A DNA stretch of 40,927 bases from a bacterium (GTDB lineage Bacteria; Chloroflexota; Chloroflexia; Chloroflexales; Kallotenuaceae), in assembly GCA_016781505.1 (NCBI GenBank), contig JADDQF010000056.1:1-40927 (forward strand). Direction: 5' to 3'. This document shows, one piece after another, positions 15,430 to 39,742 of the stretch. The notes under the pieces were generated by a model. That model saw only the letters and a program-made list of their open reading frames with translations, made no database searches and was not told the origin of the DNA. The translations under genes and the position numbers were made by a program. The first letter of the stretch is position 1. Each line of letters opens with the position of its first letter.

Positions 15430-15963
15430 TTATGGACTGCTGGTTTTTAGAATATAGGTGTTGATGCCGGCAGTGGACTTGGCAAATATGTTGATGCGGA
15501 TCAGGTATGTCGTTGTCACGCCGCTGGTGTTGGTGTACGAAAGATGTTCGCTGGCACTCCCCTGCTCGTTCGATGAGGCCACAAGCACCGTCTCGCGATA
15601 CAGCAGCAGGTCGTAATCCGCGCCATCCAGCATGCCGGCAAGATCAATGGTGATGGATTGGCCTGGGTTAAGCGTCACGCTGTAATAATCGTCTTCTCCA
15701 ACCGGGTCATCTTCAAGCGAGCCGATACACTCGCGCCCGACAGTGATCAGCTGCTTGGCTTGAGCGGGAATGTCGTTGTCTTCGCTGTCATTGCAGCTTA
15801 CCGGTAGGTTCAGCACCAGCGGCAAGTACGTGGTGGTAGTGGCCACATTCTGGATCGGCGTTGCCAGCGCGGTCGGATGTGACCACCAGCCGCAGAGTTG
15901 GAAACAACCGATCAGTGCAGCTGCTATGCTGAGTGTGGCCATGCGGCTGCGCAGGTTGGGCAT
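15430..15963 (-). CDS. Secreted PPC-domain (bacterial pre-peptidase C-terminal-like) protein
   Basis: A 177-residue protein starting at ATG 15963 with a probable Sec signal peptide (MPNLRSRMATLSIAAALIGC...). The mature part has the pre-peptidase C-terminal beta-sandwich pattern: DSEDNDIPAQAKQL, EDDPVGEDDYYSVTLNPGQS, then ITIDLAGMLDGADYDLLLY. Such domains are usually appended to secreted proteases and help folding or binding; here it stands alone. It lies between the phosphatase and the WXG-hydrolase on the same strand, with gaps of 57 and 163 bp, so membership in the secretion operon is likely but not proven. No good ribosome site is seen before 15963; longer in-frame starts to 16071 exist but would bury the signal peptide. 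Confidence 0.75.
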   Translation of the reverse strand: MPNLRSRMATLSIAAALIGCFQLCGWWSHPTALATPIQNVATTTTYLPLVLNLPVSCNDSEDNDIPAQAKQLITVGRECIGSLEDDPVGEDDYYSVTLNPGQSITIDLAGMLDGADYDLLLYRETVLVASSNEQGSASEHLSYTNTSGVTTTYLIRINIFAKSTAGINTYILKTSSP

Positions 15964-16126
15964 GTGATGTGTCACGGTAAATGTCCTTGATGATCCAAAA
16001 CTAAAACAGGCTGCTGGACGACAAGTTTTTGATGAGTTCGTAGCTAACAACGTTGATGCTGGCCGGAACACCTTGCTTGGACCTAGTCAGGACCATCCGC
16101 GCCAGTCTGTGAAAAGATACCATTAC

Positions 16127-19098: not shown

Positions 19099-19110
19099 AC
19101 ATTTCTCTTT

Positions 19111-20334
19111 CTAGCGCATCGTTTGGACGCGGCTGATGGAGCGGCTGTGGCGCCAACGCACGCCGCCCGTAAGCAGCACAATCATGAGCGACACCAGCAG
19201 TGCAGCGGGAATGCTGAGTGCAAAATAGTCACGTAGCAGCACCGGTCCAAGCGGGCGGAGTGTAATGGGCTCGCCATGCTTGGCAAAGAACGCAACCTGC
19301 TGACTTGTTGTCTGGCCTTCGGGAGTCGTGACCTGCACAACAAATGTGTGCTGCTTGCCGTCGTCAAGGAGCGCTGTTTTGTAGCGCACGGTGTACAGCG
19401 TGTCAGGTGTGATCGTGGCATAGTTGCGGAAGGCTGCACCGGCGGTCGCATCATCGGGCCGTTGGAAATACGCGCCGTTGGTTGCCGCTGCCAGCTGGCT
19501 AAGCTGAAAACCACCCTTTTGCTTGATCAGCGCCGTATCGGTGCCAATTCCGAAGGTGACAAGCCTAACCTTGCTGGCGTTGGCTTGATTGATGATGCTG
19601 TTGAAGGTGTCGGCGCTGATCTCGTCACCGCCATCGCCGACCACCAGTACAAGCGCTTCGCGGCCGCCTGACCGGGCAGCGGCGGCAGTGTCAACCACGG
19701 CCTCCTGGACTGCGGCATATAAGTTCGTTTTACCGGTGCGCGGCGGTGAGGTCCGCAGATCATTGATCAGCGCGTTGCGATCAACCGTGAACTGCTCGAA
19801 CTCACGGGGCTGTACCTGCTGGTCGGGACTTGAGATGGGCTGGAACAGGCTGACGATCTCGGGATTATTGGGCGCCAGGCTGGGTTGCAACAAAAACTGT
19901 TCAATTGCCCGCCGTCCTTCCGCTAGGTAATCACGGTCGCTGCCGGGCGCATTGAGCATGGTGGTCTTGTCGAAGACAATGCCAATCGCCGCTCCCGAGG
20001 CGAAGAGATCGACCTCAGCCTCCAGATTGGGATTGGGGGCAACCAGCTTGACCTTGCGGCTGGGATTGCTCGTATCCGCGGTTTGTGAGTCTAAGCTTAC
20101 GACCGCATGGCTCCCTGTGCTGTCTTCAAGCACCCGGATGTTGCGCTCGGTTAAGCCCTGCACCTTGCGACCCGCCGCATCTTGAACCTGAAAATCGATG
20201 CCGATTTCGGGGAACTGGCGAGTATCCACGGCCAGAATGTTGATTGCTATGTTTGCCTGACCTTGAACCGTCGAGCGTGGCTGTGTGCTTAGCAGCAGGG
20301 TCAGCGCCCACACAATGGGAAAATAACGACGCAT
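19111..20334 (-). CDS. Secreted/membrane von Willebrand factor A-domain protein
   Basis: A 407-residue protein with an N-terminal signal peptide (FPIVWALTLLLSTQPRSTVQG), a beta-rich N-terminal part (about 30-100), a VWFA domain (about 105-300) and a C-terminal helix (ALSIPAALLVSLMIVLLTGG) followed by a basic tail, so the VWA domain is outside the membrane. The strand-1 MIDAS reads GIVFDKTTM rather than DxSxS, and TGKTNLYAAV and VVGDGGDE supply later metal-site loops, so metal binding may be altered. ATG 20334 follows a strong AGGAGG that overlaps the end of the FHA gene (gap 9 bp). VWA proteins here could scaffold protein assembly of the secretion apparatus; function is inferred from context only. 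Confidence 0.9.
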   Translation of the reverse strand: MRRYFPIVWALTLLLSTQPRSTVQGQANIAINILAVDTRQFPEIGIDFQVQDAAGRKVQGLTERNIRVLEDSTGSHAVVSLDSQTADTSNPSRKVKLVAPNPNLEAEVDLFASGAAIGIVFDKTTMLNAPGSDRDYLAEGRRAIEQFLLQPSLAPNNPEIVSLFQPISSPDQQVQPREFEQFTVDRNALINDLRTSPPRTGKTNLYAAVQEAVVDTAAAARSGGREALVLVVGDGGDEISADTFNSIINQANASKVRLVTFGIGTDTALIKQKGGFQLSQLAAATNGAYFQRPDDATAGAAFRNYATITPDTLYTVRYKTALLDDGKQHTFVVQVTTPEGQTTSQQVAFFAKHGEPITLRPLGPVLLRDYFALSIPAALLVSLMIVLLTGGVRWRHSRSISRVQTMR

Positions 20335-20343
20335 GGCTGCCTC

Positions 20344-21165
20344 CTATGCCGCTTTTTCAAATGTGAGCTCGACCGACTCTTGCTCGTCGGGATGGCCGAG
20401 GTAGATAAGGTCGCCGTGTTCCAGGGGCATACCCTGGCCGTTGAGCTCCAATATGGCCCCGTGCCGCCGCAGATGCGTACCATTGGTGCTGCCTTCGTCG
20501 ATCACACAGGCCAGCTCGTTGCGAATTTCAAAGCGCGCATGGCGGCGTGAAACAATGGCGTCGGTGATGGTCATCGTTGCCTGCTCTTTGCCGATCAAGG
20601 CGCCGTGTTTGATGCCAAACTGGGTGCCTTGCTGCTGCCCGCGGGTGATTTTGACGACGCCGTATGGTGAAGCTGCGCCAGCTTTGGATGCACGCCGATT
20701 CCCGAAGGCACGCGTCATCGCTTTGGTAAAGCGCTGCGAGATTTGTTCGATTACGGGCGGGGTGTAGCCGCCGATCAACAGGCTTGCACACAGCATGGCG
20801 ACTGCCAACGACGCACCGGTTATGCCCAGTGTGGCAAGGTTAGAAAGCTGCCGACCGGCTTGCAAGGTTGTTTCGCGGTTAAGTTGCTGCGCATCGGCCG
20901 CGACCGGAAATCCGACCCGCGTGAGGGCTGCTCGCGGTGCAACGCTGGCATAATACGAAGGCAGAATCAACACCAGGGGCAGGCTGGCCAATGCCAGCCA
21001 AACAAACATCTTAGGCAGATTGGTTTCACGCCGCAACGCAAACCACATCAGCAAATAAGCACAGCCGGCGATGATCGTGGCTGGCAATGCGCCCACGGCG
21101 TACCACCAGGTATTGGTGATCTGGCCGAACTGCGTGAGATAGCTCCAAAACTCAAAATCGCTCAT
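20344..21165 (-). CDS. Membrane protein with C-terminal FHA domain
   Basis: A 273-residue protein. ATG 21165 is selected for the GAGGA ribosome site at 21172-21176. Three hydrophobic segments (about 20-45, 53-75 and 108-132; WWYAVGALPATIIAGCAYLL, then MFVWLALASLPLVLIL, then LGITGASLAVAMLCASLLIGG) precede a cytosolic FHA domain at about 185-265 with the pThr-binding signature: GALIGKE, SRRHARF and STNGTHL. FHA domains bind phosphothreonine peptides. Located between eccC and the VWA-kinase-phosphatase genes, it likely docks phosphorylated partners at the membrane and couples the kinase to the EccC machine. The preceding gap of 141 bp to eccC carries a hairpin. Confidence 0.92.
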   Translation of the reverse strand: MSDFEFWSYLTQFGQITNTWWYAVGALPATIIAGCAYLLMWFALRRETNLPKMFVWLALASLPLVLILPSYYASVAPRAALTRVGFPVAADAQQLNRETTLQAGRQLSNLATLGITGASLAVAMLCASLLIGGYTPPVIEQISQRFTKAMTRAFGNRRASKAGAASPYGVVKITRGQQQGTQFGIKHGALIGKEQATMTITDAIVSRRHARFEIRNELACVIDEGSTNGTHLRRHGAILELNGQGMPLEHGDLIYLGHPDEQESVELTFEKAA

Positions 21166-21272
21166 CCCTACGTTCCTCATATACTGTGATGGATAGCTAG
21201 CATGGTCTGAGAAACAGAAAATGTGGTGCAAGGTTCATGTTGCCGACTACTGGTTATTCGTGCTGCGGTGCC

Positions 21273-21290
21273 GGCAGCTCGGTAGCTGCC
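21273..21290 (-). other. Intergenic hairpin after eccC
   Basis: GGCAGCT-CGGT-AGCTGCC, a perfect 7-bp stem with a 4-nt loop, lies 17 bp past the eccC stop on the minus strand. No T-run follows, so it may be a partial terminator, an mRNA-stability element or simply a processing site between eccC and the FHA gene. Confidence 0.35.
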
Positions 21291-21306
21291 CGCTGTCTAG
21301 GATCGT

Positions 21307-24300
21307 CTATGCCCCTGCGACATGCACCTCCGACGTCGTCAGTGCAAACTGGACCAGTTGCACCTGGCCTTGCAGCGTCAAATAGCCGCGGCCCGGCGGC
21401 ATCTCGAGCTGGGCAGCCTGTCGCGGCAGCTTGATGCCTAGGGTGCTGGCCACGGTGCTGCTTTCAGACGGCTGCCCCAGGTAGATCGCGCACCGCTCCA
21501 AGCGGGCCATTTTGAGCATATCGGTGCTCGTAAAGCCACCATACTCGGCGCCAGTAACCACGAGATGCAGCCCCAGATCACGTCCCTGCATCACGAAAGT
21601 GCCCAGCGGTTTCCACAAACTGTAGGTGTCTTGGAGCAGATCCCAGTTGCTGATAACTAAAACAATCCGTGGACCGAGGATTCCACTGCCGACCCGTCTG
21701 GTCATTTCGCCGGCGAGATCCGTGACGAGTGCCCGAACTTCTTGCTCGTTGGTAATCACCTTCACTGCTCGTTGCTCTGCGGCCGCCCCACCCGCGGCGG
21801 GCAGCGTTAGGGCAGTCGCTCGTACATGCTCCAAGTGGGCAAAGCGTTGTAGCACCCGTCGGCGGTAATCCACCAGTACCAGCTGGAGCTCCCCTGGCTC
21901 GTACCGGGTGGCAAGGCCGGTAATAATGATGCGGAGCAGCTCGGATTTGCCGCTGCGTGGACCTCCTGCAATCAGCAGGTGGGGTGTTTTGGTTGCGAAA
22001 TCGAGCTGTACCGGCTGGAGCGAGATGCTGTCAATGCCGATGGGCGTGCCGAGCTCAACCGCCGCAGGCTCCGACTGAACAAGCAGTTCACTCAGCTCAA
22101 CCCGCGTTGATAACGAGCGCAACGGCTGGGGCCGGCCTGCTACGACCGCGGCACAGCGCTCCACAACCAGATTGATAGCCGCCTGTATGGTGGGGCCCGT
22201 GTCACTGTAGGCCATGCTGGTTGCAGGATCTGCCGTAGCCGTACCGTCCAGGTGGCGCAGCACTGGCAGGGCAATCTGCAACTCGATTGGACGCTCACTT
22301 GTGCGCAGAAATGCCCGACCCGGCTGTTCGAGCGAAATCCGGGCCGCATAGGCTTTGTTGATCACGGCATCCGAGTCGGCTGCATCGTTGAGGCGCAATG
22401 CAATGCGGGTTTCAAAGTTGCTTTGAATTGGTGCAACGTCCCGCCAGGTATAGCCGGTGACTACAAAATTAATGCCGCACTTGCGCGCATCACGAATCAG
22501 CGCCTTGAATGTGTCGACGACCTCAGGTTGTGCTGCTGTCAGCTCGGCAATGTTGTCGATCACCACCAGAATACCCGGCGGCAGCGTATCAAGCGTGGAG
22601 CGGCGCTCATACAGCTGCGCTAAGGTGTCGACGCCGTGCTGCTGGAGCAACGACAAGCGCTGCCGAATGTGATCTTGGAGCTCAATCAACAGCCGTTCAA
22701 CTTTTGAGGTGTGCGCAGCAGTGAAGCTGTCGGCGATATGCGGTAGCCTGCGCGAGCTCGCCGATACTTCCTCGGTCTTGCTGTTGAGCGGCATGAGGCC
22801 ACAGCCTGAGCTGGTCGGATCGATGACGTAGATCCACAGCTCGGCCGGCGAATGCGTGGCCGCCAGGGCCAGCATCAGCGTCCGTACCAACGTGGTCTTG
22901 CCGGAGCTCGCCGAGCCGAGGATCAGAATGTTGCCGTCACGGTTGGCCAGATCAAGCACAAATGGCTGCTGCTGAGCGGTCGCCGGCAAGTCGAGCAGGC
23001 CAATGGGTGCTTGAAGCCAACGCGTAGCGGATGGGTAGCCAAGCAGGTCGGCTAGCACAATCTCGGCGTTCAGCGGCTCAGTCCAGATTGGATAGCGCGC
23101 GGCAGCGTAGCCGACGCCGGTAGACGGATCATTCATCATTGCCTGCGTAATCAGCGCAAGCTCGTGTTCATGGGTGATATCGGCGTGCATCAACGTGAGT
23201 AGCTGCTCAACCAGCCCATCGATATCGCGCCGCGCGCCTTCTCCTTCAGGCTGCTCTGCCCCAACCAGATAGCTGTTGAAGAGCTCACTTATTCGCTGCT
23301 GGAGCTGAGACTCACTTCCTGGATAAGGCTTGCGCCGTTGCATTCCCGTGTGGTCGAAGTTCTGGTACGTTTGGAGAAAGGTCGTTGTCAGCTGCTGCAG
23401 CGTTGCGGGCTGCGGTTGCTGGGCTGCGCCCAACAATGTGCCGAGAGCATCTCGCAGCTTAGCCACGCGCCGATCCTGCTTGGAGATCGGTTGCCAGCGT
23501 CCAGTCACATCGACATAGCCGAGATCGCTGCCGTGCGTTGGCGGCTGGTAGGGCACCGTAATCCGGGCGGACTGAAATTGCACCACCCGTTTGCCCACAC
23601 GAAAAAAGCCGCGGCCAGGTGTTTCTGTGGTCAGGTACGCCGCGTCCGGTATGGTTACCATCGTTTTGCTGTCATCCGTGCCCGTGACCCGCAGCGCAAT
23701 CCAGTACGTCAGGTTGCGGGTCAAGCCCTCTTTGATCAAAGATGGCTGCTGTGTTGCAAACAACAAATGGACGCCCAAGCTGCGACCTTGTTTGGCTACC
23801 CGGACCAATTCGGTTACAAAATCGGGATAGTCGCGCACCATCTCGTCAAATTCGTCGATGGCAATCAACAGGTTCGGCATGGGACCAAAGTGCGGCTGTT
23901 GCTCAAAGCCATGCCTGCGATATTCGCGAATATTCGGCACGTCAACCTTGGGTGTGACCTGGCTGGCCTGGGCCAGCCGTTGCTTGCGCCGATCAAGCTC
24001 GCTGTTAATCGCGATCAAGGCGCGCTCGGCCATGTTGCCTTTGAGGTCGGTGACCACGCCAGCGGTATGCGGCAGGGCTTCGATGCCTTGAAAGGTTGCC
24101 CCGCCTTTGAAGTCGATCAGCATAAAGTTGACACGATCCGGCCCATGCTTGATCGCCAGGGCCAGCAAAAACGTAAGCAAAAACTCGCTCTTGCCCGAGC
24201 CCGTGGTTCCGGCGATCATGCCGTGGACGCCATCAAAGCCTTCGTTGAGATTGATTTCCAACGCTTCCGTTGCATCTCGGAGGCCGCAGGGAATGGGATG

Positions 24301-25737
24301 CCAGCTGTTTTGTGGCAGCTTGTGCCATAGCTGCTGCGGATCGTACGCTTTTGCGTCGTGAATGCCGAGCAGAGGCAGCAGCCGTACGCTCCGCGGCAGT
24401 TCGCGCCGGCCATCGGCTTCGATCTGGGTTACGGGTGCGAGCGCACGTGCTAACCGATTGCTTGATGGCCGGTCTGCACTGCCCGGTGTGAACGGATACA
24501 TGCCACCGCCAGGACCGGCAACGGCCAAGGTTGGCGTTTGGCTAAGGTCAACATACGCGCCACACTCACCTGGAACTTGCCGGACCGCATCGACGAGGCA
24601 GATTGCAGTACTGCCCAGGCGCGCGCCCTGCTGCAATACCTGCACAAATGGTTGGATGGTGCGGCCGTAGTGCTGATAATCGCCAACAACCAGCACCAGA
24701 TGGGCACGCGTAGCGACTGCAGCTGGTTGCTCGGCCCGTTGTTGAAACTCACGCGAAAGTGTGCCCAGCACTTCCTGCAAAGCTTCTGGTTGGCCGTCAA
24801 GGCGAGCCAGTAAACGGTAGTCCTCGCTGCCATCAAGCGACCGCGTGTGCGGTAACCACCTTAACCATTCCCACGAGGTATCAAAGCGCGAGTCCCAAAA
24901 CGCTGCAATTCGCACTTCCTTCGGGCTATGATGCACTGCCAGCTGCCACAGCAGCGCGCGGGTAAATTCCAACGCTTTACCCGACGGTCCTGCAACTCCG
25001 AGCGAGCCCCAGGTCCGCAAAGTTGCCGTTAAGGGCACGTCCGCCACAACGGCAAATTCATTGGCAAGCTCAATTGCACGACGAAGGTCCGCTGTATATT
25101 CCAACAGGTTGCTTTGCGGCGGCTTGATCGTGATTGATGTGGGTACATTGCCGCGTCCAATACGGACGGCTAAAAAGTCATCGTCGGTGGGCCGGCGCTC
25201 CCACAAACGCTGCGCAGGCTGTCGATTGCCGGCTGTGTCGAGCTCGCCCTCGGCAATCCGCGCCAGCGTGGCTAGCTCGGGATCGTTTGCCTCGCGGATA
25301 GCTCGCTGCTGCTGATGCAGCTCCGACAGTCGCTCCCGCAGGGAGCGCAACGCGTCGTCATAGCTTTGCGCTTGCTCGCGCAGCTTTTGCTCGCGCAGCC
25401 GTCGTTGGCGAAAGTAGTTGTGAATGCCGAGCCCAGCACTCGCAAAGGAAACACCGACCATCGGCAGGCTCAGCCACACATTGGCCTGCTGGCCACCGCG
25501 CGCCGCCATGACGATCAGATACATCACCGCCGTCAAGACCGGCAGCACCACCGTCGCAAGCTGTATGTTCATGCTGGGACCAACAGGCCGCGGTGGCGCC
25601 GGAATCACCACTTCTTCCCGCGGGAGCGCGCGCAGAATACGCGGTGGCCGATTGAATAAACTTTCTGGCTCTGCTGGCTGTACGGCGCTTGGGTAGGTAG
25701 GTGATGGATCAATCTGTGGGTCGATGGCGGCCACCAT
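21307..25737 (-). CDS. eccC: EccC/EssC-type FtsK/SpoIIIE ATPase of a type VII-like secretion system
   Basis: A 1476-residue membrane ATPase, the hallmark motor of WXG100 secretion. Two helices lie at about 57-80 and 87-104. A degenerate ATPase-like domain with GPSGKALE (about 250-257) is followed by three FtsK-type domains. D1 has GTTGSGKS (510-517), LLIAIDEFDE (Walker B, D628 E629) and VHLLFATQQPS. D2 has GSASSGKT (941-948) but DN in place of DE at Walker B (LVVIDN, about 1057-1062). D3 has GGPRSGKS (1258-1265) and no clear acidic pair. This fits the known pattern of an active D1 with degenerate D2/D3. No N-terminal FHA pair is present, unlike EssC of Firmicutes, so it is closer to fused EccC. 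ATG 25737 follows AGGAGCG. It follows the WXG100 gene across a strong hairpin. Confidence 0.95.
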   Translation of the reverse strand: MVAAIDPQIDPSPTYPSAVQPAEPESLFNRPPRILRALPREEVVIPAPPRPVGPSMNIQLATVVLPVLTAVMYLIVMAARGGQQANVWLSLPMVGVSFASAGLGIHNYFRQRRLREQKLREQAQSYDDALRSLRERLSELHQQQRAIREANDPELATLARIAEGELDTAGNRQPAQRLWERRPTDDDFLAVRIGRGNVPTSITIKPPQSNLLEYTADLRRAIELANEFAVVADVPLTATLRTWGSLGVAGPSGKALEFTRALLWQLAVHHSPKEVRIAAFWDSRFDTSWEWLRWLPHTRSLDGSEDYRLLARLDGQPEALQEVLGTLSREFQQRAEQPAAVATRAHLVLVVGDYQHYGRTIQPFVQVLQQGARLGSTAICLVDAVRQVPGECGAYVDLSQTPTLAVAGPGGGMYPFTPGSADRPSSNRLARALAPVTQIEADGRRELPRSVRLLPLLGIHDAKAYDPQQLWHKLPQNSWHPIPCGLRDATEALEINLNEGFDGVHGMIAGTTGSGKSEFLLTFLLALAIKHGPDRVNFMLIDFKGGATFQGIEALPHTAGVVTDLKGNMAERALIAINSELDRRKQRLAQASQVTPKVDVPNIREYRRHGFEQQPHFGPMPNLLIAIDEFDEMVRDYPDFVTELVRVAKQGRSLGVHLLFATQQPSLIKEGLTRNLTYWIALRVTGTDDSKTMVTIPDAAYLTTETPGRGFFRVGKRVVQFQSARITVPYQPPTHGSDLGYVDVTGRWQPISKQDRRVAKLRDALGTLLGAAQQPQPATLQQLTTTFLQTYQNFDHTGMQRRKPYPGSESQLQQRISELFNSYLVGAEQPEGEGARRDIDGLVEQLLTLMHADITHEHELALITQAMMNDPSTGVGYAAARYPIWTEPLNAEIVLADLLGYPSATRWLQAPIGLLDLPATAQQQPFVLDLANRDGNILILGSASSGKTTLVRTLMLALAATHSPAELWIYVIDPTSSGCGLMPLNSKTEEVSASSRRLPHIADSFTAAHTSKVERLLIELQDHIRQRLSLLQQHGVDTLAQLYERRSTLDTLPPGILVVIDNIAELTAAQPEVVDTFKALIRDARKCGINFVVTGYTWRDVAPIQSNFETRIALRLNDAADSDAVINKAYAARISLEQPGRAFLRTSERPIELQIALPVLRHLDGTATADPATSMAYSDTGPTIQAAINLVVERCAAVVAGRPQPLRSLSTRVELSELLVQSEPAAVELGTPIGIDSISLQPVQLDFATKTPHLLIAGGPRSGKSELLRIIITGLATRYEPGELQLVLVDYRRRVLQRFAHLEHVRATALTLPAAGGAAAEQRAVKVITNEQEVRALVTDLAGEMTRRVGSGILGPRIVLVISNWDLLQDTYSLWKPLGTFVMQGRDLGLHLVVTGAEYGGFTSTDMLKMARLERCAIYLGQPSESSTVASTLGIKLPRQAAQLEMPPGRGYLTLQGQVQLVQFALTTSEVHVAGA

Positions 25738-25763
25738 ATGCGCTCCTAGAACAATAGGTATGG

Positions 25764-25792
25764 GCGGCCACGTAGCTATTCTGCGTGGCCGC
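25764..25792 (-). terminator. Strong hairpin between the WXG100 gene and eccC (attenuator candidate)
   Basis: GCGGCCACG (25764-25772) pairs perfectly with CGTGGCCGC (25784-25792) and the stem extends inward by three pairs including one wobble, leaving a 5-nt loop. On the minus strand it begins 15 nt after the WXG100 stop and ends about 27 nt before the eccC ATG. No T-run follows. It probably limits transcription into eccC or protects the upstream mRNA, which would favour excess of the small secreted protein over the motor. Confidence 0.55.
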
Positions 25793-25806
25793 TGTCGCTC
25801 ACCCGA

Positions 25807-26088
25807 TTACCCGCCGAATGCTTGATCGGCTTGATCGAACTCGTCCGCTTCCCGGCGGAGACCGCCTGCCAGCCGTTCGAGCTCGAGCATCAGCGCCTGC
25901 AGCTGGTTGGACCAGTTGCTCCACTCATTTTCGAACTGGGTCCGGCTGCCGCCGCTCCATTGAGCCGACACATCGTTGACGGACGACATTAAGCGGCCAA
26001 ATTCACTCTGGCCAATTGAATCGCGGCACGCATCGAAAACGCTTGCGGTGGTCCGGGCCTGGTCGGTATCGAGACTTTTAACTGCCAT
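25807..26088 (-). CDS. WXG100-family protein (EsxA/EsxB-like)
   Basis: A 93-residue helical protein, the typical WXG100 length, without signal peptide. The loop W44-S-G46 sits between two amphipathic helices. Near the C-terminus F84-D-Q-A-D88 takes the place of the YxxxD/E export signal, with Phe for Tyr. ATG 26088 follows AGGAG. Known family role: a four-helix dimer recognised by the EccC C-terminal ATPase and secreted. It is the only stand-alone WXG100 gene here, so it may form homodimers or pair with the WXG-like domain of the hydrolase at 14059-15372. The next gene downstream is eccC. The 181 bp upstream probably contain its own promoter, but no clear -35/-10 pair was found. Confidence 0.93.
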   Translation of the reverse strand: MAVKSLDTDQARTTASVFDACRDSIGQSEFGRLMSSVNDVSAQWSGGSRTQFENEWSNWSNQLQALMLELERLAGGLRREADEFDQADQAFGG

Positions 26089-26269
26089 GGTATGAACACT
26101 CCTGGTTATGCACATTGCATGGTTGATAGATAGGATGACGCACGTCCAGAAACAACATATTGAAGGGCAAGAATCCCCAAGGGTAACAGTGGGCAGGACC
26201 TCTTTTCTCTGTATGGGAACAGAACACAAGGTGGAAAGAATACGGCTCCAATGTGGAGGACGGAAAGTT

Positions 26270-26965
26270 TTATGAGGATGCGAGGCGGACGTTGATCGGC
26301 CAGCCGTTGTGGCCAAGCACAATCGTTGTTGAGCGCGCGAGCATGGTTGTCATGCCCTTGCTCAAACCGCGTCCGTCAACATAGGTGTAGGCATACGCTC
26401 GGAGCAGCCAGTGTGCGCCTTGCTGAACGATCGCACAGTGCTGCTCCCGTGAGACGGCTTGCAGCCGTGATGGAAGACCAGCGAAGCTTTTCGCTTGTTC
26501 AAGCAGGACGAGTTGCTGCGGCAGTGCGGTTAGCAGAAAGTTCCGGCTCAGCTGTACGCCGTCAGCCGCCAGCTCTAGGCTGTATCCAGCGCTCAACTGA
26601 ATACGACAAGCTCGGGGCTGGACGTTAACTGCTTGGGCTGCTGCCTGAGGATTAAGGTGTTGAGTTGCCGCTGAAGGTTGGTCCCACCACGGGGCGCGTA
26701 GATTGGCGAGATACATGAGCTCGCCTTCGACGATCCGGGTCTGCGCCAGCGTGCGCTTGCGAGCCAGGATGGGCTCACGACGCCCTTGGACTGCCTTAAA
26801 CAATGTGTATTCGATGATGGTGTCGGTCTGGTCGCTTTCGGGCAGCCGATCGCCGAGCTGCTCCTTGATCTCCGACACTACTTCACCGACGAGTTGTTCA
26901 CTGTCAACTTTGACAGTCTTGTGGTCGGTTTCACTCCACCAGATATCGAAGCGAATGGGGGGCAT
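26270..26965 (-). CDS. Ubiquitin-like (YukD/EsaB-type) plus FHA-like domain protein
   Basis: A 231-residue soluble protein at the 5' end of the secretion locus. Residues 1-85 look like the YukD/EsaB ubiquitin-like fold: an N-terminal beta-strand RFDIWWSETDHKTVKVDSEQ, a helix LVGEVVSEIKEQL and a TRIVEGELMYLAN final strand. Residues from about 110 read like an FHA-type beta-sandwich (CRIQLSAGYSLELAADGVQL; SREQHCAIVQQGAHWLLRAY; TTIVLGHNGW), but the conserved pThr-binding GR...S..H...N pattern is only partly kept (SREQH). In Firmicutes EsaB is an essential small cytosolic T7SS regulator, and in Actinobacteria a ubiquitin-like domain heads EccD. ATG 26965 is preferred over a TTG at 26989. Fusion with an FHA-like module is unusual; the assignment is moderate. 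Confidence 0.75.
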   Translation of the reverse strand: MPPIRFDIWWSETDHKTVKVDSEQLVGEVVSEIKEQLGDRLPESDQTDTIIEYTLFKAVQGRREPILARKRTLAQTRIVEGELMYLANLRAPWWDQPSAATQHLNPQAAAQAVNVQPRACRIQLSAGYSLELAADGVQLSRNFLLTALPQQLVLLEQAKSFAGLPSRLQAVSREQHCAIVQQGAHWLLRAYAYTYVDGRGLSKGMTTMLARSTTIVLGHNGWPINVRLASS

Positions 26966-27605
26966 GTTCGCTATCTTTCTCTTGTTCAAATAAATTGTAA
27001 GGGCAACGGTCGTACACTGTGTTTATGGAGCACGACAGAAACGGACGAACGCGTGAAGCGAGGCAATCAGGCACAGCGCCTGCGACGCCGAAGCCTCTGT
27101 AACAAAACGTTTTACACCGGCAAACTGATGAGTTGACGAAATACTGTCTGCTTGATCGGCTGTTGGAAGACGCCGGAGATGCAGGTGCTTCATGTCGGGA
27201 ATGCTTTGGTGTAAATGTTAGCAGTACCGGCACTTGTAGAAAATACACCTTTCGCAGCAATCGGTCTCCTCCCCGAAAGGTTGCCTGTCGGGCAACGTTT
27301 AGCCATAGGGTGGCTGGTACTGGAGAACTGCTTATTTCATTATTGCTATATGCCAAAACGCGATACTCATGAAACGTTTAGTCGCCGTTGCAGCTTCCCC
27401 TCACGCTGCACCGCTTCCCCTTGGCCACCACGCTGAACACGAGAAAACGCGCAACGGGAAATAGGCAAATTGCTTGCCAAACCGGTACTGCTGAAGACCC
27501 CTGCCGTAGGTCATTTCGCTGCTTTGACGACGCTTACATTTGTATCTAACAATATGACAGTTCGGCGGGATGGGCCCGTCGCCGACTCAGCAAAGTGTCG
27601 CGTGC
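26966..27605. other. Gene-free region between the secretion locus and the toxin-antitoxin pair
   Basis: About 640 bp without a supportable gene. A minus-strand TACAAT at 27000-26995, about 30 bp before the ubiquitin-like gene start, is a possible -10 for the secretion locus, with no clear -35. A palindrome AAAACGTTTT is at 27104-27113. GTTGCC-TGTCG-GGCAAC (27280-27296) is a small hairpin followed by GTTT. No tRNA, small-RNA family or coding similarity was recognised. Base composition is lower in GC than the flanking genes, so it may be a junction of an acquired segment. Confidence 0.4.
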
Positions 27606-27611: not shown

Positions 27612-27652
27612 CGACATAAAACACACAGCAGGATGGGGCGAGGTAGGTGACG

Positions 27653-27982
27653 ATGACGGTATTAGAAGAGGCAGCACAGCTTTTATCAGCGATGACGCCC
27701 GCTGAGAAAGCGCAGTTACTCCAATGGGTCGTACGAGATTTAGGCGACACGTTTCCCAGTATTGAGAGTACATCTGAGGTTGCAGGCGGTGAACCACGGA
27801 TCGTGCGTACACGTATTCCTGTCTGGGTTCTTGTGCAAGCACGACGGTTAGGAACAAGTGAAGCAGACCTGCTCCGGGCCTATCCTTCGCTTCGAGCTGA
27901 AGATTTAGCAAATGCGTGGGCCTATGCGCGCGTCCACCGGGACGAAATCGAGCAACAAATTCGTGAGAACGAGGCTGCGTAA
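27653..27982 (+). CDS. DUF433-family antitoxin-like protein
   Basis: About 109 residues (ATG 27653; a GTG at 27647 is also possible) with AGGTAGG upstream. The N-terminal helical part (LEEAAQLLSAMTPAEKAQLL) is followed by a DUF433 winged-helix domain: GGEPRIVRTRIPVWVLVQ, RRLGTSEADLLRAYPSLRAE, DLANAWAYARVHRDEIE. DUF433 proteins are commonly paired with DUF5615 proteins in VapBC-like toxin-antitoxin modules, as here (stop and next start are 2 bp apart). It would bind the toxin and probably the promoter at 27606-27611. Presence beside an eroded region fits a mobile accessory module. Confidence 0.88.
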   Translation: MTVLEEAAQLLSAMTPAEKAQLLQWVVRDLGDTFPSIESTSEVAGGEPRIVRTRIPVWVLVQARRLGTSEADLLRAYPSLRAEDLANAWAYARVHRDEIEQQIRENEAA

Positions 27983-27984
27983 CG

Positions 27985-28323
27985 ATGCCGCAGCTTTATA
28001 CGGATGAGAATTTTCCGCTACCCACAGTGGACGCGTTACGCCAATTCGGGCACGATGTCATCACGTTAGCTGAGGCAGGTCACGCGAATCAATCGGTACC
28101 AGACGTTGATGTGTTAGCGCTCGCTGTTGCCGCCGGCCGGATTGTGCTGACGCTCAATCGGAAACACTTTATCCGGTTGCATCAGACAACCCCAACACAC
28201 CCGGGCATGATCGTGTGTACCTTTGACCCTGATTTTGTCGCTCTCGCGCAGCGGATTGACGCCATACTTGCCAGTTACAGCAACATGAATAATCAACTCA
28301 TCCGCGTAAATCGACAGGCATAG
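27985..28323 (+). CDS. DUF5615 PIN-like toxin-like protein
   Basis: A 112-residue PIN-like protein beginning with the family signature LYTDENFPLPTVDALRQFGHDV (first Asp of the metal site in TDENF), followed by SVPDVDVLALAVAAGRIVLTLNRKHFIRLH, where the family has acidic residues and TxD/NxxF, and HPGMIVCT near the end. VapC-like PIN nucleases cleave tRNA or mRNA; whether the DUF5615 branch is active as a toxin is not established. The position normally reading D in LT-x-DKDF is N-R-K-H here (TLNRKHF), so one metal ligand may be changed. It is co-transcribed with the DUF433 gene 2 bp upstream. Confidence 0.87.
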   Translation: MPQLYTDENFPLPTVDALRQFGHDVITLAEAGHANQSVPDVDVLALAVAAGRIVLTLNRKHFIRLHQTTPTHPGMIVCTFDPDFVALAQRIDAILASYSNMNNQLIRVNRQA

Positions 28324-28469: not shown

Positions 28470-28882
28470 GTGAATACCAGCTGTCATTTTGCCGATATCA
28501 ATCATGTTTTGGCCCTGCGCGCGCTGTCACCGGACGTGCCGCCGACATGGGAGATGATGGCGCGTAGCGTTCATACCTATCCCGTCGTCGTTGGGGCGGA
28601 TCTTGGGCCAGCTACGAGCGGTGGGACTCGTGGTATCACAGCCGCGGACCGGCGGCGGGTGGCGCCTGGTGCAGGCACCCAACGCGATCACCTTGTGTGC
28701 CGTGTATCGAGCGGTAGCGCCGGAAGCGCTGTTTGGACTGCACCAGCGTGTTCCAAACGATCAATGTCGGGTTGGGCGGAACATTCAAGGACGTGGGGGA
28801 CGCATAGCGCGGGATGGAGCAACAGCTGGAACGCCGCATGCTCGCCGATGTTGTGGCGGGTGTTGTGGGACGTGAAAGCTAG
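28470..28882 (+). pseudogene. Rrf2-family transcriptional regulator, frameshifted
   Basis: Read across frames, the segment gives a full Rrf2-like protein: HVLALRALSPDVPPTWEMMA and RSVHTYPVVV in one frame, then after a lost base near 28590 GRILGQLRAVGLVVSQPRTG (recognition helix and wing), GGWRLVQAPNAITLCAVYRAV and LFGLHQRVPN, then after a second shift near 28790 the C-terminal EQQLERRMLADVVAGVVG with an extra in-frame TAG, ending at TAG 28880-28882. The GTG at 28470 could have been the start. At least two frameshifts and one stop make it dead. Rrf2 proteins regulate redox, iron or nitrosative genes; there is no sign of an Fe-S cysteine triad in the remnant. Confidence 0.85.
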
Positions 28883-28945
28883 CTGGCTTAGGGTCGGCAT
28901 TGATATTGGTTTGTAACTGGCATAAATGCGTAACAGGAGCGGTTT

Positions 28946-29113
28946 ATGGAGCGCGATGAAGGTCCAACACGCGGAAATACCTGGGTGAGCCGGTATATCC
29001 CTGGCATCAGCCCGGAGATGAGCGGGTTGCTGTGGTTATCTAGCCTGAGTACGTACCGCAAACAAGCTGAGCGGACAACATTCGGCTCAATGCTGTGGCA
29101 CGGAGATCAATAA
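28946..29113 (+). CDS. Small 55-residue protein of unknown function
   Basis: ATG 28946 has AGGAG at 28934-28938 (good spacing) and the frame runs 55 codons to TAA 29111-29113, which lies in the loop of a perfect hairpin (29094-29126). A ribosome site at one end and a terminator-like hairpin at the other support a real short transcript. The product has a weakly hydrophobic middle ([16 protein letters not shown]) and matches nothing I know. It could also be the fused ends of a larger gene after an internal deletion, since the surrounding 1.5 kb is full of pseudogenes. Confidence 0.4.
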
Positions 29114-29126
29114 CCTCCGTGCCACA
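29094..29126 (+). terminator. Perfect 12-bp hairpin overlapping the stop codon of the 55-residue ORF
   Basis: TGTGGCACGGAG (29094-29105) is perfectly complementary to CTCCGTGCCACA (29115-29126), loop ATCAATAAC. The sequence after it (ATATGTTTC) has only a short T-run, so termination would be moderate. The stop codon TAA is in the loop. Confidence 0.6.
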
Positions 29127-29194
29127 TATGTTTCGGGAGCTACAAATTACGCCAGCTCGCGGAACGTAATCGCCGGGTTGGAGCGGACGCAGTA

Positions 29195-29575
29195 TTGCAA
29201 GGCCCAATCCGAAACAAACGCCACCACGAGCGCCTGCTGCTGGTCGCGGGCGACAAGGGTGCCGGTGGGCCATTGGACGCACTCAAGCACGGACGGCTCG
29301 GCCTCGACCCAACGCGCGAAGAGAACCGGCGCGCGGTGCGAGCACTTTGGGTGTGGACGAAGTACGTGTGGTACGAGGCCGAGCGCGCTATTTACCGGAC
29401 GGCAGTTGCGCGCCTGTGGCATGAATACCAATTTCGCGCCAGTGCTGGATGTGAACAACAATCCGGCAAATCCTGTCATCGGTACTCGCTCATTTGGCGA
29501 GCAGTCGGCGCGGGTCATTGAGTTTGGCCAGGCGGCACTCCGTGGCTACACCGACACAGACGTCGTTCCCGTATG
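29195..29575 (+). pseudogene. Remnant of a GH3-family beta-N-acetylglucosaminidase (NagZ-type)
   Basis: One frame gives the unmistakable GH3 N-terminal-domain segment [19 protein letters not shown] (about 29419-29475) followed by [27 protein letters not shown]. The upstream part lies in another frame ([12 protein letters not shown], comparable to LLIAADQEGG) and is badly eroded. The alignment breaks off near 29570, before the catalytic Asp region, so at least 60 percent of the gene is missing. In life the enzyme would have removed terminal GlcNAc from peptidoglycan fragments. It abuts the next remnant directly. Confidence 0.8.
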
Positions 29576-29838
29576 CGTTACGGCGCGTCGCGGACGTTCG
29601 CGCAATCTTTGCACCGGAACATGGCCAGTATGGTGTGGCGGGTGCCGGTGAGCATGTCGGCGCCGGTACGCATCGAAGTGGTGTTCCGATTCATAGCTTG
29701 TATGGCCACAACTTTGCGCCGACAAAGGAACAGCTGGAAGCCGGACGCCCAAGGCGCACTTATGCTGGCCAAACGGATGTTGGACAAGTCTTGCTAACTT
29801 TCGTCGTTCCCAACGGTGGGCGGAGTCGTTCGCCGTAA
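29572..29838 (+). pseudogene. Remnant of a NamZ-type (DUF1343) exo-N-acetylmuramidase
   Basis: [20 protein letters not shown] followed by [37 protein letters not shown] is a clear match to the N-terminal part of DUF1343 proteins (known pattern: L-F-x-PEHG-x-G, then GVP-x-SLYG...PT...L). The first about 40 residues and everything after the LYG/PT segment are missing; the frame drifts into non-homologous codons and stops at 29838. NamZ removes terminal MurNAc and works with NagZ in muropeptide recycling. It shares a junction with the GH3 remnant near 29572, apparently through a deletion. Confidence 0.75.
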
Positions 29839-29868
29839 GCCACAGTGTTGTGAAAGGAAGGCAGACAG

Positions 29869-30149
29869 ATGAAACATTTCGTTCGGATGATGTGAGGGCT
29901 GGCGGTGCTGCTTAGCGTCTTGGCAGTAGCTGCGGTGCAGGGACAGACACGGCGCAGCGAATTCCGCGCCTAATGGGTAGATGCCTTTGGCCCGGTATTT
30001 TCAGCGAAGCCAAGATCGACAAGCTAGTGGCGGATGTCAAAGCGGCCAATATGAACGCCACCGTTGCCCAGATTGGACGGCGCTGCGACTGCTTCTGCAA
30101 GAATGCGGCAATGCCGCGCACACAGGCCCGCCTTGCGCCAAGGCCATGA
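29869..30149 (+). pseudogene. Remnant of a GHL10 (DUF187, YngK-like) glycosyl hydrolase
   Basis: ATG 29869 follows an intact AAGGAAGG. The frame would give a signal peptide (GLAVLLSVLAVAAVQGQTRR) after an early TGA (codon 9), then SEFRA-stop-WVDAFGPVF, then after a frameshift near 30000 KIDKLVADVKAANMNATVAQ and the family segment GRRCDCFCKNAAMPRTQ, ending at TGA 30147-30149. The family motif is RG-x-WVDAFGPG...L...A...N-NA...Q-VRRRGD-YY. Two stops, one frameshift and loss of the C-terminal four fifths make it dead. It belongs to the same lost cell-wall or polysaccharide degradation cluster. Confidence 0.8.
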
Positions 30150-30186
30150 AGTTCGCTATCATAGCTTTGTCCTCCCACAGAGATGA

Positions 30187-30218
30187 GTGTGTTCCTGCAA
30201 GAACACACGTGCTATACT
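30187..30218 (+). promoter_or_regulatory. Inverted repeat at the -35 region plus -10 box ahead of the AmiE-like gene
   Basis: GTGTGTTC (30187-30194) and GAACACAC (30201-30208) form a perfect 8-bp inverted repeat with a 6-bp spacer, followed 4 bp later by a -10-like TATACT (30213-30218). The repeat covers the expected -35, so it looks like an operator for a dimeric repressor or activator. The start codon is about 100 bp downstream (30322). Confidence 0.5.
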
Positions 30219-30321
30219 AGAGGCCGTATCATCCATCCATTGGAACTAGCCCAAGGCCTAATAGCGGGTGAAGATCTAGTATCTACGTATTGGTCGAGAC
30301 AATAACAATTAAGAGGTGTGA

Positions 30322-31482
30322 ATGACACCTGATTTGAGCGGCCCCGAAGCCGTGCTTCGCGCAGCAATTCCCGATGTTGCTCCCGCGGCGCAGCTGGTGG
30401 TGCGCTGGCGTGGGCGACAAATTCACGCTGGCGCGTACGGCTGGCTTGATCCGCTGACCTACCAGCAGCCCACGCAGCCCGATACACTGTTTGATCTGGC
30501 ATCGATCACGAAACTCTTTGTTGTCACGACTTTTATGACGCTGGTTGAAGCTGGGCAGGTGGCGATCGATCAGCCGGTGGCGGAGGTGCTGCCGGAATTC
30601 ACCGGACGACGGAAGATTGCACCTTATGAAGATCCGCTAAAGCCCGGAACGTTTGTGCAGCTCGTAACGGACGCGGACGATGTGGATGTAGGCCTAATCA
30701 GCTTTCAACAGATTCTGACGCATACCTCCGGCTTGCCGGCCTGGCGGCCGTTGTTTCGGCAAGGCAACCGCGACGCGGCACGGTCCATGGCGCTCGGCAC
30801 TGCCTGGGCCTATCAGCCGGGAACACGCATCGTCTACAGTGATATCGGCTTGATTACACTAGGCGTCGCGATCGAGCGCCTAACCGGACAAACGCTAGAT
30901 GTGGCCGTAGCCGAACGAGTGACGGCGCCGGCTGGCCTGGTGCATACGCGTTACCTGCCGATCGGCGGTGCCGATGGGCCGGCTCCACAGCTTGTTGCAC
31001 CAACTGAGGAGTGTGCCTGGCGCTGCCGGCGCGTGGTCGGCGAGGTGCATGACGAAAACGCTGCTGCACTAGGCGGCGTTGCCGGACATGCCGGTCTATT
31101 CAGCACCGCGTCTGATGTTGCTGCCTTCGGCCAACTGTTGCTCGACGGAGGCCCGCCGGTGTTACAGCCCGCCACAGTGGCTGAAATGACGCGGGTGCAT
31201 GCTGAATGGGAAGGTACACGACGGGGCCAAGGCTTTGCGCTATGGTCGCCTGATCCCGAGGCGAGTAGTTACCCGTTTAGTCGTCGCACCTTTGGTCACA
31301 CTGGCTTCACCGGTACCTCGCTGTGGGTTGACCCCGATCGTCAGCTTGTGGTTGCGTTACTAACGGACGATGTTTACTACGGTCGAGCAAACCGGGGCAT
31401 CGCGCGGCTGCGGCTGGAAGTTCACCGGGCGATTGTTGAAACGATTGATGCGCTGCCAGATTCATGGGTGAAAACATGCTGA
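30322..31482 (+). CDS. Beta-lactamase-family serine hydrolase, AmiE/YbbE-like
   Basis: A 386-residue protein. ATG 30322 follows AGAGGTG. Active-site motifs: SITK (S61, K64), Y172-S-D174 in place of YxN, and H326-T-G328 in place of KTG. The segment VHDENAAALGGVAGHAGLF (about 242-260) is characteristic of the Bacillus AmiE (YbbE) branch, an N-acetylmuramoyl-L-alanine amidase of muropeptide rescue, and also found in related esterases. No signal peptide is seen, so it would be cytosolic. It is the only intact gene of what looks like a NagZ-NamZ-AmiE cluster; the upstream partners are pseudogenes. An inverted repeat marks its promoter. Esterase or other D-amino-acid amidase activity remains possible. 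Confidence 0.88.
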   Translation: MTPDLSGPEAVLRAAIPDVAPAAQLVVRWRGRQIHAGAYGWLDPLTYQQPTQPDTLFDLASITKLFVVTTFMTLVEAGQVAIDQPVAEVLPEFTGRRKIAPYEDPLKPGTFVQLVTDADDVDVGLISFQQILTHTSGLPAWRPLFRQGNRDAARSMALGTAWAYQPGTRIVYSDIGLITLGVAIERLTGQTLDVAVAERVTAPAGLVHTRYLPIGGADGPAPQLVAPTEECAWRCRRVVGEVHDENAAALGGVAGHAGLFSTASDVAAFGQLLLDGGPPVLQPATVAEMTRVHAEWEGTRRGQGFALWSPDPEASSYPFSRRTFGHTGFTGTSLWVDPDRQLVVALLTDDVYYGRANRGIARLRLEVHRAIVETIDALPDSWVKTC

Positions 31483-31516
31483 CGATGGCGATATACTCCT
31501 GAACATATGTCTAATA

Positions 31517-32616
31517 CCGTTTTGCTATGGTGATAGGGCATTAACCGCATTCATGAAATACGGATAGGCGGTCAGGGAGTGGAGGGTGGGCGCATCATAC
31601 GCTTCGACCAACCGCACGATGTGGTCTTGGAGTGCTGGGAGCGATGGGTAGCGCTCCCAGGCGAGGTCGGTTTTGAGGTCCTCCCACACCCGTTCACTGG
31701 GGTTGACCTCGGGCGCATACGCGGGCTGAAAGAGCAGCACGACGTTCGACGGCATAACCAGGGTCTGCGCCCGATGCGCCCGGCTGTTGTCCAACAGTAG
31801 CACATTCAACGTGTCCGGTCGCGCTTCGGCCAAGGCGTTCAGAAAGAGCTGCATGTACTCAGCGTTCAGCATCGGCAGCACGTAAAAGAAGGCATCACCT
31901 GTTGCTGGCGCCACTGCTCCATACAGCCAGAAATTCTGGTAGCCGTACTGGCAGATGCCCCGCGGCTTGACCCCACAGCTCGTAATGCGCCGCCGCTGAA
32001 TGGTGCGCAACCCAAAGCGGCTTTGGTCGAACGCCCACACCACGACCGGACGCGGCTCGTCAGGCGCTACGGCCGCCTGGACTAAGGCAGGAAACTCGGC
32101 TTGAAACTGCGCCACGGCCTGGTCGTTTTTTTCATGCTGTGGCCGTGGCACTTTCAATTTTGCGCGGAGTTTGCGCCGGACGAGCTTATACACGGCATGG
32201 TAGCCCATTGGCACACCCAACGTGTCGGCGATCCACTGCTGCACGGCGCCATAGGAGGCAAAGCCCTCCGGACGATCAAGTGCGGCGTGCAACTGCGCCA
32301 GTTGGGCAGGGGAAGGCGGGCGCTCGCCCTGGTGGGACGTAGATCGAAGAGTGCGGGGAGTCCTCCCTGCGCATTGGTGTGCAACCAGCGGCCAATGGTG
32401 CCGCGACTGACGCCAAGTAAGGCCGCGACCGTAATCCGGGAGCGGGCCTGACCACTGGCGAGCAAATACAGGGCATGGAGGCGCTGCTGTTTGTCGGGCT
32501 GACGCTCGCGATGAAGGAGTTGCTTCAGCTCCTCAGCGGATTCGTGGATCGGCGGAACGGCGTTATTCATGCTGGAGAGCGTACCATACTAATGGTCTAC
32601 CCGAAAGGCAAAACGG
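31517..32616 (-). mobile_element. Complete IS630-family insertion sequence (about 1.1 kb)
   Basis: The ends CCGTTTTGC (31517-31525) and GCAAAACGG (32608-32616) are perfect inverted repeats, each flanked by TA (31515-31516 and 32617-32618), the target duplication expected for IS630/Tc1-mariner elements. The interior is filled by a transposase in two frames on the minus strand. It lies 34 bp past the AmiE-like gene and at the 3' end of a 50-residue ORF, whose last codons it supplies. The exact outer boundary could be 1-3 bp wider because similarity of the ends continues weakly. Confidence 0.9.
31525..32570 (-). CDS. IS630-family DDE transposase in two overlapping frames
   Basis: The upstream frame (ATG 32570) encodes the helix-turn-helix half (LLGVSRGTIGRWLHTNAQGG); the downstream frame (to TAG 31525-31527) encodes the catalytic half with the DDE triad in VVWAFDQSRFG, VLLLDNSRAH and NPSERVWEDLK. 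The frames join near 32334-32337 at a CCC run, where a -1 shift or one missing C links LFDLRP to HQGERPPSPAQLAQL. Some IS630 elements use programmed frameshifting to join two ORFs; no canonical A6G slippery site is present here, so a simple mutation is equally possible. Total length would be about 347 residues, normal for the family. Confidence 0.9.
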
Positions 32617-32749
32617 TATAACTTGATCCCGCGCGCTTAGGGGGACGTTCCAGTTCCTCGCCGGGATCGTCGTCGTAGTACAGAGGGGTACGGCGTACGA
32701 TACGCATGCCGAGCGCTGGATGATGACGTGCAAACACACGCTGGCCCAT
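32597..32749 (-). CDS. 50-residue small protein whose C-terminus is altered by the IS
   Basis: ATG 32749 is preceded by AGGAGGGC with ideal spacing. The product (MGQRVFARHHPALGMRIVRR, then TPLYYDDDPGEELERPP and a short tail) is charged and soluble. Codons beyond 32617 lie inside the insertion sequence, so the last about six residues and the stop are supplied by the IS. The family is unknown to me. The strong ribosome site is the main support. It stands divergent from nothing and downstream of cutC by 90 bp on the same strand. Confidence 0.5.
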   Translation of the reverse strand: MGQRVFARHHPALGMRIVRRTPLYYDDDPGEELERPPKRAGSSYTVLPFG

Positions 32750-37852: not shown

Positions 37853-39742
37853 TTACTGCTGGACGCCCTTGAGCGTGCCGTCAAGGATCATCAACACGAC
37901 GAAGGAGTCGGCATACGGGCTGTTGTTGTAGATCGGATCGCCCTGGGCCGGCCAGCCGGTCACACGAGCATCACGTAGGACCGGGTTGTTGCCATAGCGC
38001 TCCCAGAGCGGGATGATCGGCAGCAGCTCGTTGAATGCCGTCGCCAGCTTGGTGACGGTCGCCTTCTGCGCCTCCTCGTCCAACCCGGCCGCAGACTGAA
38101 CGGTCAATTCTTGCAAGTCAACCTCGCCGAGCGACTCGGTCTGCTGCTTGAGTGGGAAGGCCATGCCCGGACCTGGCGCCTGCGGCGCGTTGTGGGTCAG
38201 CACGTCGGCCACGTACGAGAAATGCGGGTGCGGGTTGCCAGCGCCCCAGGCGTTAATGCCCAGTTGGAACCGGCCATTGTCCATATCGGGTGTCCACTGG
38301 CTGAAGGTCACCGGACGTGGTGTCGTCTTGATACCGAAATTGGTTAGCTGCGTCGCCAGATTCTGCCCTGCTGCCGACCAGTCGGCGAACTCGGCGGGGA
38401 AGCCAAGCTCGTACTCAAGCCGCGTACCGTCCGGCGAAACCCAGACATCGCCGTCCTTCTTGAACCCGAGGCTCTCCATCATTCTGGCAGCTTCTTCCGG
38501 ATTGTAGTCGTAGGCGTTGAGCTTGGTGCGATCTTCTTCGCTGACCCAGCGCTCAAGGATCCGGTCGGCGACACCCGCCATGTACTGAGACTTCTTGGCC
38601 GACTCGCCCAGGGATACGGTGGCGTTCTCGTCCTTGTTGATCGCCATCGCGATCGCCTGACGAACCTTCGGATCCGCGAGCGGCTTTACTACATTATAGT
38701 TGATGAAAAGCGCGGGGCCCGAGTACACCGGGGGTCGAACGATGTCAATGCCCTGCTGCTGATACGCCTTCTCCGTAGCCGGCGGGAAGCCGTGCGTCGC
38801 GTAATCGACCTCTTTGGAGAGAACCAGTGGCGTGATTGCCGGCGTCTCACCATTGTACAGCACGACTCGGTCGAAGTTGACCGTATTGGCATCCCAGGCG
38901 GTTGGTACCTTGGTGAGTGTCAGCTGCGCCTCGGTGATGCTGGCCGGATCGATTTGAAACGGCCCGTTGACGACCATCGCCTCCGGACGGAACGCCTCGA
39001 ACTCCTGGCGCAGATCCTTGACCTCCTGGGAGTCAGAGGTGGCGCCGCCCTCGAAGAGCGTCCTGGCTTTGTCGGCCCATTCCCCGTAGACCGAGTCGGA
39101 TCGAATGCGCTCGCGGAGCACATAGCGCTGCACAACCGTGGATGGTTCCTTCATCTTGAAGTTAACGGTGTTGTCCCCCTCAGCCGCTACTGATTCGAGA
39201 TACCTCCAGACAACCGTATTCTGCAGCCGCAGCAGGTTGAACGTATCGACAACATCCTCCGCGTTGAAGTCTGTGTTGTCGTTGAACTTGACACCCTCGC
39301 GCAGTTGTACCCTGAAGGTGTCCGGCTCGATGACCTCCCACTCCGTCGCCAGCATCGACACGAACTCGTTCGGATCCCACTTGTAAAGTGCTAAAGGCAT
39401 CTCAAGCAGATCGTGGTAGATCGTGCCGCCAAGGATCGAATCAGTGGCGAAGGTGTTGAAGTGCCCCTTTGGCGGTAGCTGGTACGGGTACGCTCCGTGG
39501 AACTCTCCACCGCTTGCTTGCGCACCAGCCGCTGGCGCTGCCGCGGTGCTTGCGGCAGCTGCTCCGGCCGCCCCTGCGGACGCGGCCGGAGCTTGAGCTG
39601 AGGCAGCCGGAGCAGCCGTGCTAGCCTCCGTCGTTTGACCTCCCCCGGCTGGCGCTCCGCCACATGCTGCAAGAATCGGCAGAAGCAGAACCAGGAAGGC
39701 TACAAGTAATAGTTGTCTGTGAGCGAGCGAATGCTTGGGCAT
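37853..39742 (-). CDS. Family 5 ABC solute-binding lipoprotein (Opp/Dpp type)
   Basis: A 629-residue extracytoplasmic binding protein. ATG 39742 follows GAGGAG. The signal peptide ends in the lipobox LAAC (C27), so it is lipid-anchored, then comes an Ala-rich linker (TAAPAASAQAPAAS type) of about 50 residues before the SBP_bac_5 domain. Typical features are WEVIEPDTFRVQLREGVKFN, DFNAEDVVDTFNLL, VRQAIAMAINKDE and EEAARMMESLGF. It captures peptides or similar oligomers for the transporter whose ATPase lies upstream. The long Ala-rich linker probably spans the wall or keeps the domain off the membrane. It is 223 bp from the small membrane protein gene upstream. Confidence 0.94.
   Translation of the reverse strand: MPKHSLAHRQLLLVAFLVLLLPILAACGGAPAGGGQTTEASTAAPAASAQAPAASAGAAGAAAASTAAAPAAGAQASGGEFHGAYPYQLPPKGHFNTFATDSILGGTIYHDLLEMPLALYKWDPNEFVSMLATEWEVIEPDTFRVQLREGVKFNDNTDFNAEDVVDTFNLLRLQNTVVWRYLESVAAEGDNTVNFKMKEPSTVVQRYVLRERIRSDSVYGEWADKARTLFEGGATSDSQEVKDLRQEFEAFRPEAMVVNGPFQIDPASITEAQLTLTKVPTAWDANTVNFDRVVLYNGETPAITPLVLSKEVDYATHGFPPATEKAYQQQGIDIVRPPVYSGPALFINYNVVKPLADPKVRQAIAMAINKDENATVSLGESAKKSQYMAGVADRILERWVSEEDRTKLNAYDYNPEEAARMMESLGFKKDGDVWVSPDGTRLEYELGFPAEFADWSAAGQNLATQLTNFGIKTTPRPVTFSQWTPDMDNGRFQLGINAWGAGNPHPHFSYVADVLTHNAPQAPGPGMAFPLKQQTESLGEVDLQELTVQSAAGLDEEAQKATVTKLATAFNELLPIIPLWERYGNNPVLRDARVTGWPAQGDPIYNNSPYADSFVVLMILDGTLKGVQQ

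Follow-up and report, generated by a model that had tools for sequence, protein, structure and literature searches.

Remnants of a probable second muropeptide-salvage operon upstream of an intact S12 serine hydrolase gene in a Chloroflexota genome

Layout of the remnant array and its surroundings

The window analyzed was a stretch of 40,927 nucleotides (contig JADDQF010000056.1, positions 1 to 40,927) from the assembly GCA_016781505.1 of a Kallotenuaceae bacterium of the phylum Chloroflexota. Fragments of genes coding for an Rrf2-family regulator, a GH3 hydrolase (NagZ), NamZ and a GHL10 protein were confirmed at 28509-30146, and an intact serine hydrolase gene was located downstream (Table 1). 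These contents had been recognized in a first-pass annotation, and Pfam matches, the comparison with an intact operon of a congener (G055, same genus) and shuffled controls agreed with it. Its list of the array was incomplete, however, as an antisense 3' piece of prfC had been missed. The region was dinucleotide-shuffled 200 times, and no shuffle reached the scores observed for NagZ, NamZ, GHL10 or prfC. No matches were obtained when the window was scanned for Rfam families and tRNAs.

Table 1. Features of the remnant array and the adjoining genes (window coordinates)
Feature	Position	Strand	Basis
Rrf2-family regulator remnant, three frames and one stop	28509..28876	+	PF02082, E=5e-14 with frames joined
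prfC (peptide chain release factor 3) 3' fragment, last ~62 codons	29150..29335	-	Match to the genome's own prfC
nagZ (GH3) remnant, residues 110-170 of the intact protein (61 of 524 aa)	29385..29567	+	PF00933, E=1.6e-12, 48 bits (Pfam cut-off 27)
namZ (DUF1343) remnant, N-terminal, from ~residue 33 (~60 of 377 aa)	29551..29748	+	PF07075 (NamZ_N), E=1e-9, 38.2 bits (Pfam cut-off 26.9)
Probable last codons of a BadF-type kinase gene (nagK)	29740..29799	+	Position-specific shuffle test
GHL10 remnant, first ~91 codons (~91 of 558 aa), two stops and a frame change	29869..30146	+	Comparison with GHL10 of G055
Intact AmiE/PBP4B-type S12 serine hydrolase, 386 aa	30322..31482	+	PF00144 (Beta-lactamase), E=2e-49
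IS630-like element, bystander	31514..32619	-	30-base terminal inverted repeats; DDE_3 and HTH_33 matches

The Rrf2 remnant was composed of three pieces (28509-28622, 28582-28791 and 28751-28876), and two frame changes were needed to join them. The prfC fragment was 95% identical at the DNA level over 150 bases to the prfC gene found on another contig of the same genome (C52), with a protein identity of 84-87%; the C52 protein was identified as PrfC (739 bits). For the source of the stretch 28934-29110, no relative was found among the loci examined.

The nagZ remnant shared 74% protein identity with an intact NagZ encoded elsewhere in the same genome, on contig C90. The namZ remnant was 61% identical to the C90 NamZ over 62 aa and 54% identical to that of G055 over 81 columns. 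The GHL10 remnant gave no Pfam match, and it was recognized by its resemblance to GHL10 of the intact G055 operon, with 54% identity over 41 columns followed by 75% over 51 aa, and 81% DNA identity over 171 bases. Both stops were situated within the GHL10 start region, and the resemblance to the intact operon extended 5' of the GHL10 start codon. A nagK tail was probably present just 5' of GHL10, placed as in the intact operon; at that position only 1 of 1000 shuffles scored as well, whereas the tail was not significant in a shuffle test of the whole-region search.

Several other features of the window were noted. Adjoining DUF433 and DUF5615 genes, which looked like a PIN-like toxin-antitoxin pair, were located just left of the remnants (27647-28323). 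The IS630-like element stood directly behind the intact hydrolase gene; its transposase was split by a frame change, and it was a single copy in the genome. Judged by eye, the minus-strand run at 12500-27000 included a 1476-aa FtsK/EssC-like ATPase (21307-25737), together with small WXG100-like ORFs and others resembling kinases and phosphatases, which suggested a type VII-like secretion locus. A strong match to this run was found only in G053 (57%, the small ORF at 26270-26989), and the ATPase was 29-32% identical in G054. A second PF00144 protein, with a DUF3471 tail, was encoded on the minus strand at 9137-10744, a placement unrelated to the remnants. A binding protein encoded at 37853-39742 was related to an SBP_bac_5 protein of G055, at only 37% identity.

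The intact hydrolase and its relatives

The hydrolase carried the motifs S61-x-x-K64, Y172-S-D and H326-T-G, in which S61, K64, Y172, S173, D174, H326 and G328 were invariant over 33 homologues and T327 varied. Orthologues with 65-68% identity were found in G055 and in a Herpetosiphonaceae genome (G051). The first-pass annotation had treated this gene as the survivor of the array, for which dN/dS should be estimated; values of 0.12-0.21 were obtained at a dS of 1.4-2.1, which is close to saturation. As far as substitution rates can tell, the gene is under purifying selection. The next homologues in the same genome were only 29-33% identical, hence it was the sole AmiE-type gene found there.

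The neighborhoods of the homologues were compared over 56 loci. Many of them were located beside anmK, murQ, nagK, SIS, nagZ or namZ in Chloroflexota, and similar surroundings were seen in Actinoplanes (murQ-nagK-namZ-nagZ) and Paenibacillus (namZ-nagK-nagZ-anmK). Linkage to nagZ, namZ and murQ was therefore found for the clade, and in the window only remnants adjoined the hydrolase gene. Two gene fusions were also recorded. In G051 (MAG MGR_bin415, JACDGP010000005), the hydrolase and MurQ formed one 698-aa protein (L076, 6223-8319; the same locus as L134), and in an Anaerolinea MAG the hydrolase was fused to a BadF-type amino-sugar kinase (L148, 4092-6146). The possibility that insertion of the IS630-like element had separated the amidase from a MurQ domain once fused to it was rejected, since the stand-alone G055 orthologue was of about the same length.

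A structural model of the hydrolase (pLDDT 93) matched S12 folds, and the nearest solved structures were EstG, family VIII esterases and the R61 DD-peptidase, as expected for S12. AmiE belongs to the same superfamily as the window hydrolase, PBP4B and these esterases, therefore fold and profile matches do not discriminate between them. These matches would also suit a DD-carboxypeptidase of the PBP4B kind or a general esterase of family VIII rather than a MurNAc-L-alanine amidase. The best NCBIfam match of the hydrolase was indeed PBP4B (NF002968), at 119.6 bits far below the cut-off of 385, and PBP4B is encoded in the murQ operon of E. coli (PMC5061867). This assignment was nevertheless considered rather unlikely, as the steady linkage or fusion of the clade to cytoplasmic MurNAc enzymes, together with the N-termini of the hydrolase and its homologues, at which no signal peptide was evident by eye, points to a soluble muropeptide step. 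The AmiE-branch identity proposed in the first-pass annotation was thus supported by neighborhood and by the fusions to MurQ and the kinase. In the best reading, the hydrolase is a predicted cytoplasmic muropeptide amidase serving an operon kept elsewhere in the genome.

The intact operon and the origin of the array

In G055, an unbroken operon was found on contig C215 (locus L083) in the order GntR, nagZ, namZ, sugar-binding lipoprotein, two permeases, anmK, murQ, BadF-type kinase (nagK), GHL10 and SIS. The families of the array had been expected to occur together in relatives, and this held for G055, from GntR-nagZ-namZ through to nagK-GHL10, while amiE stood beside nagZ, namZ, anmK, murQ or nagK in many genomes. 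The window pieces followed the same order, nagZ, namZ and GHL10, on the same strand. At least two large deletions are required to derive the window array from an operon of the G055 type. No trace of GntR, the ABC transporter, anmK or murQ above shuffles was found in the window, which deletions could explain. The operon kinase (PF01869) sits between murQ and GHL10; its nearest NCBIfam family was NagK_SO3507, for which it scored 107 bits, far short of the cut-off (370).

The regulator of the relatives' operon is GntR, and no relative of the Rrf2 remnant was found in any recycling locus examined. By sequence comparison, the Rrf2 and prfC fragments are foreign to the recycling operon in every relative examined.

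The genome containing the window was assembled into 159 contigs (96% complete, 1.9% contamination). Uninterrupted GntR, nagZ and namZ genes were found on contig C90, the permease genes, anmK, murQ and most of nagK on C119, and SIS and nagA on C152. The NagZ, AnmK, MurQ and NagA proteins each scored above at least one NCBIfam family cut-off, and both domains of NamZ were found by Pfam. GHL10 was the only operon gene with no other copy in the assembly. These genes lie on separate contigs, and we infer that they form one continuous operon. The first ABC permease gene of C119 (L114) contained an in-frame stop (VGNAT*TVV, compared with VGNSTQTIV in G055), possibly a sequencing error, a polymorphism or an early decay of the retained operon.

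The nagZ remnant differed from the C90 gene with a pS of 0.58 and a pN of 0.14. Its divergence was mostly synonymous, which indicates that the copy was constrained through most of its history and broken late, and the first-pass view that the breakage was recent holds relative to the age of the copy. The nagZ piece was about equally distant from C90, G055 and G054, which points to an old copy. Judged by distance, the nagZ and namZ pieces could have arisen either by duplication within the lineage or by import. The flanks were not conserved in the congeners, hence the site before decay is not visible.

It is improbable that the decay is only apparent, with the array misjoined or contigs of a related organism binned in. 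Such an artefact would be consistent with the fragmented and slightly contaminated assembly, and with C52 stopping inside the prfC match, C90 just past namZ and C119 inside nagK. However, DNA identity to C90 is as low as 78% for the nagZ piece and 68% for the namZ piece, which therefore were not copied from that contig, and a misjoin leaves the internal stops and frame changes of Rrf2 and GHL10 unexplained. The G+C content of C90, C119 and C152 (0.60) also resembles that of the window, while tetranucleotide correlations, by which the membership of C119 was examined, were widely spread between contigs. Slightly less probable still is the first-pass proposal that the recycling set existed only at this site and was lost by the lineage except for one amidase: this would agree with the genuine, recently broken remnants and with the lack of a second GHL10 copy, but since C90 carries an intact nagZ-namZ and C119 carries anmK-murQ-nagK, a loss of the whole pathway is refuted unless both contigs are contaminants.

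We concluded that a second copy of an operon for cytoplasmic MurNAc/muropeptide salvage has probably decayed here, leaving an array that also contains unrelated Rrf2 and prfC scraps and precedes an intact gene for an AmiE-type amidase. As nagZ-namZ, anmK-murQ-nagK and SIS-nagA are present elsewhere in the genome, a second copy decayed and the pathway was kept; this is mostly ordinary gene decay and not pathway loss. Pseudogene remnants in one window thus need not mean that a pathway was lost, and they have to be interpreted together with the remainder of the genome. No amiE was seen with the genes on C90, C119 and C152, so selection plausibly retained amiE while the redundant nagZ, namZ and GHL10 decayed beside it. 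In G055, the hydrolase orthologue was located outside the nagZ-namZ operon, behind an oligopeptide (SBP_bac_5) ABC transporter (L077, 3775-11020). Its tie to the nagZ operon there is functional rather than positional, and the link between amidase and remnants in the lineage of the window may accordingly be due to chance.

Proposed salvage route and comparison with known systems

The following route may be suggested. Cell-wall disaccharides or muropeptides would be imported by the ABC transporter, the non-reducing GlcNAc would be removed by NagZ and MurNAc by NamZ. The stem peptide would be stripped in the cytoplasm by the AmiE-type enzyme, with Ser61, Lys64 and Tyr172 serving an acyl-enzyme mechanism. 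Phosphorylation of anhydroMurNAc and free sugars would fall to AnmK and the BadF-type kinase, MurQ would cleave the lactyl ether, and NagA and the SIS protein (NagB-II-like) would feed the products into central metabolism.

More tentatively, Chloroflexota may possess a wholly cytoplasmic muropeptide route of their own type, in which ABC import is followed by NagZ, NamZ and an amidase of the AmiE type that is not secreted and, in some species, forms one protein with MurQ or with the amino-sugar kinase; the window might then show a duplicated operon trimmed beside the gene that the other copy lacks. The data suggest that this phylum has a peptidoglycan salvage operon that is supplied by an ABC transporter and probably works in the cytoplasm. 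Of the side results, the most interesting are the gene fusions and an AmiE clade that appears to be cytoplasmic; the AmiE-MurQ and AmiE-kinase proteins give a direct, testable hint at the role of that clade.

Among the papers searched, none combined NamZ, AmiE, NagZ and muropeptide. The B. subtilis cluster is given as murQ-murR-murP-amiE-nagZ-ybbC(namZ) in PMC5061867, which cites Litzinger et al. 2010. As in the cluster described there, NagZ, NamZ, MurQ and an AmiE-kind S12 hydrolase co-occur in relatives of the window protein. That paper describes a PTS transporter (MurP), the regulator MurR and extracellular AmiE and NagZ for B. subtilis, whereas here the genes code for an ABC transporter, GntR, AnmK and a BadF-type kinase, no signal peptides were evident in the proteins, and the set looks intracellular. 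The operon kinase resembles MurK and NagK in belonging to the BadF/BcrA family (PF01869), to which the MurNAc kinase MurK of Tannerella forsythia is assigned in PMC10465942.

The E. coli operon murQ-murP-yfeW(PBP4B) (PMC5061867) likewise links an S12 protein to MurQ, and PBP4B was the best NCBIfam match of the window protein. The window protein, however, scored far under the PBP4B cut-off, and its Chloroflexota clade is tied to AnmK and the kinase and is fused to MurQ or the kinase.
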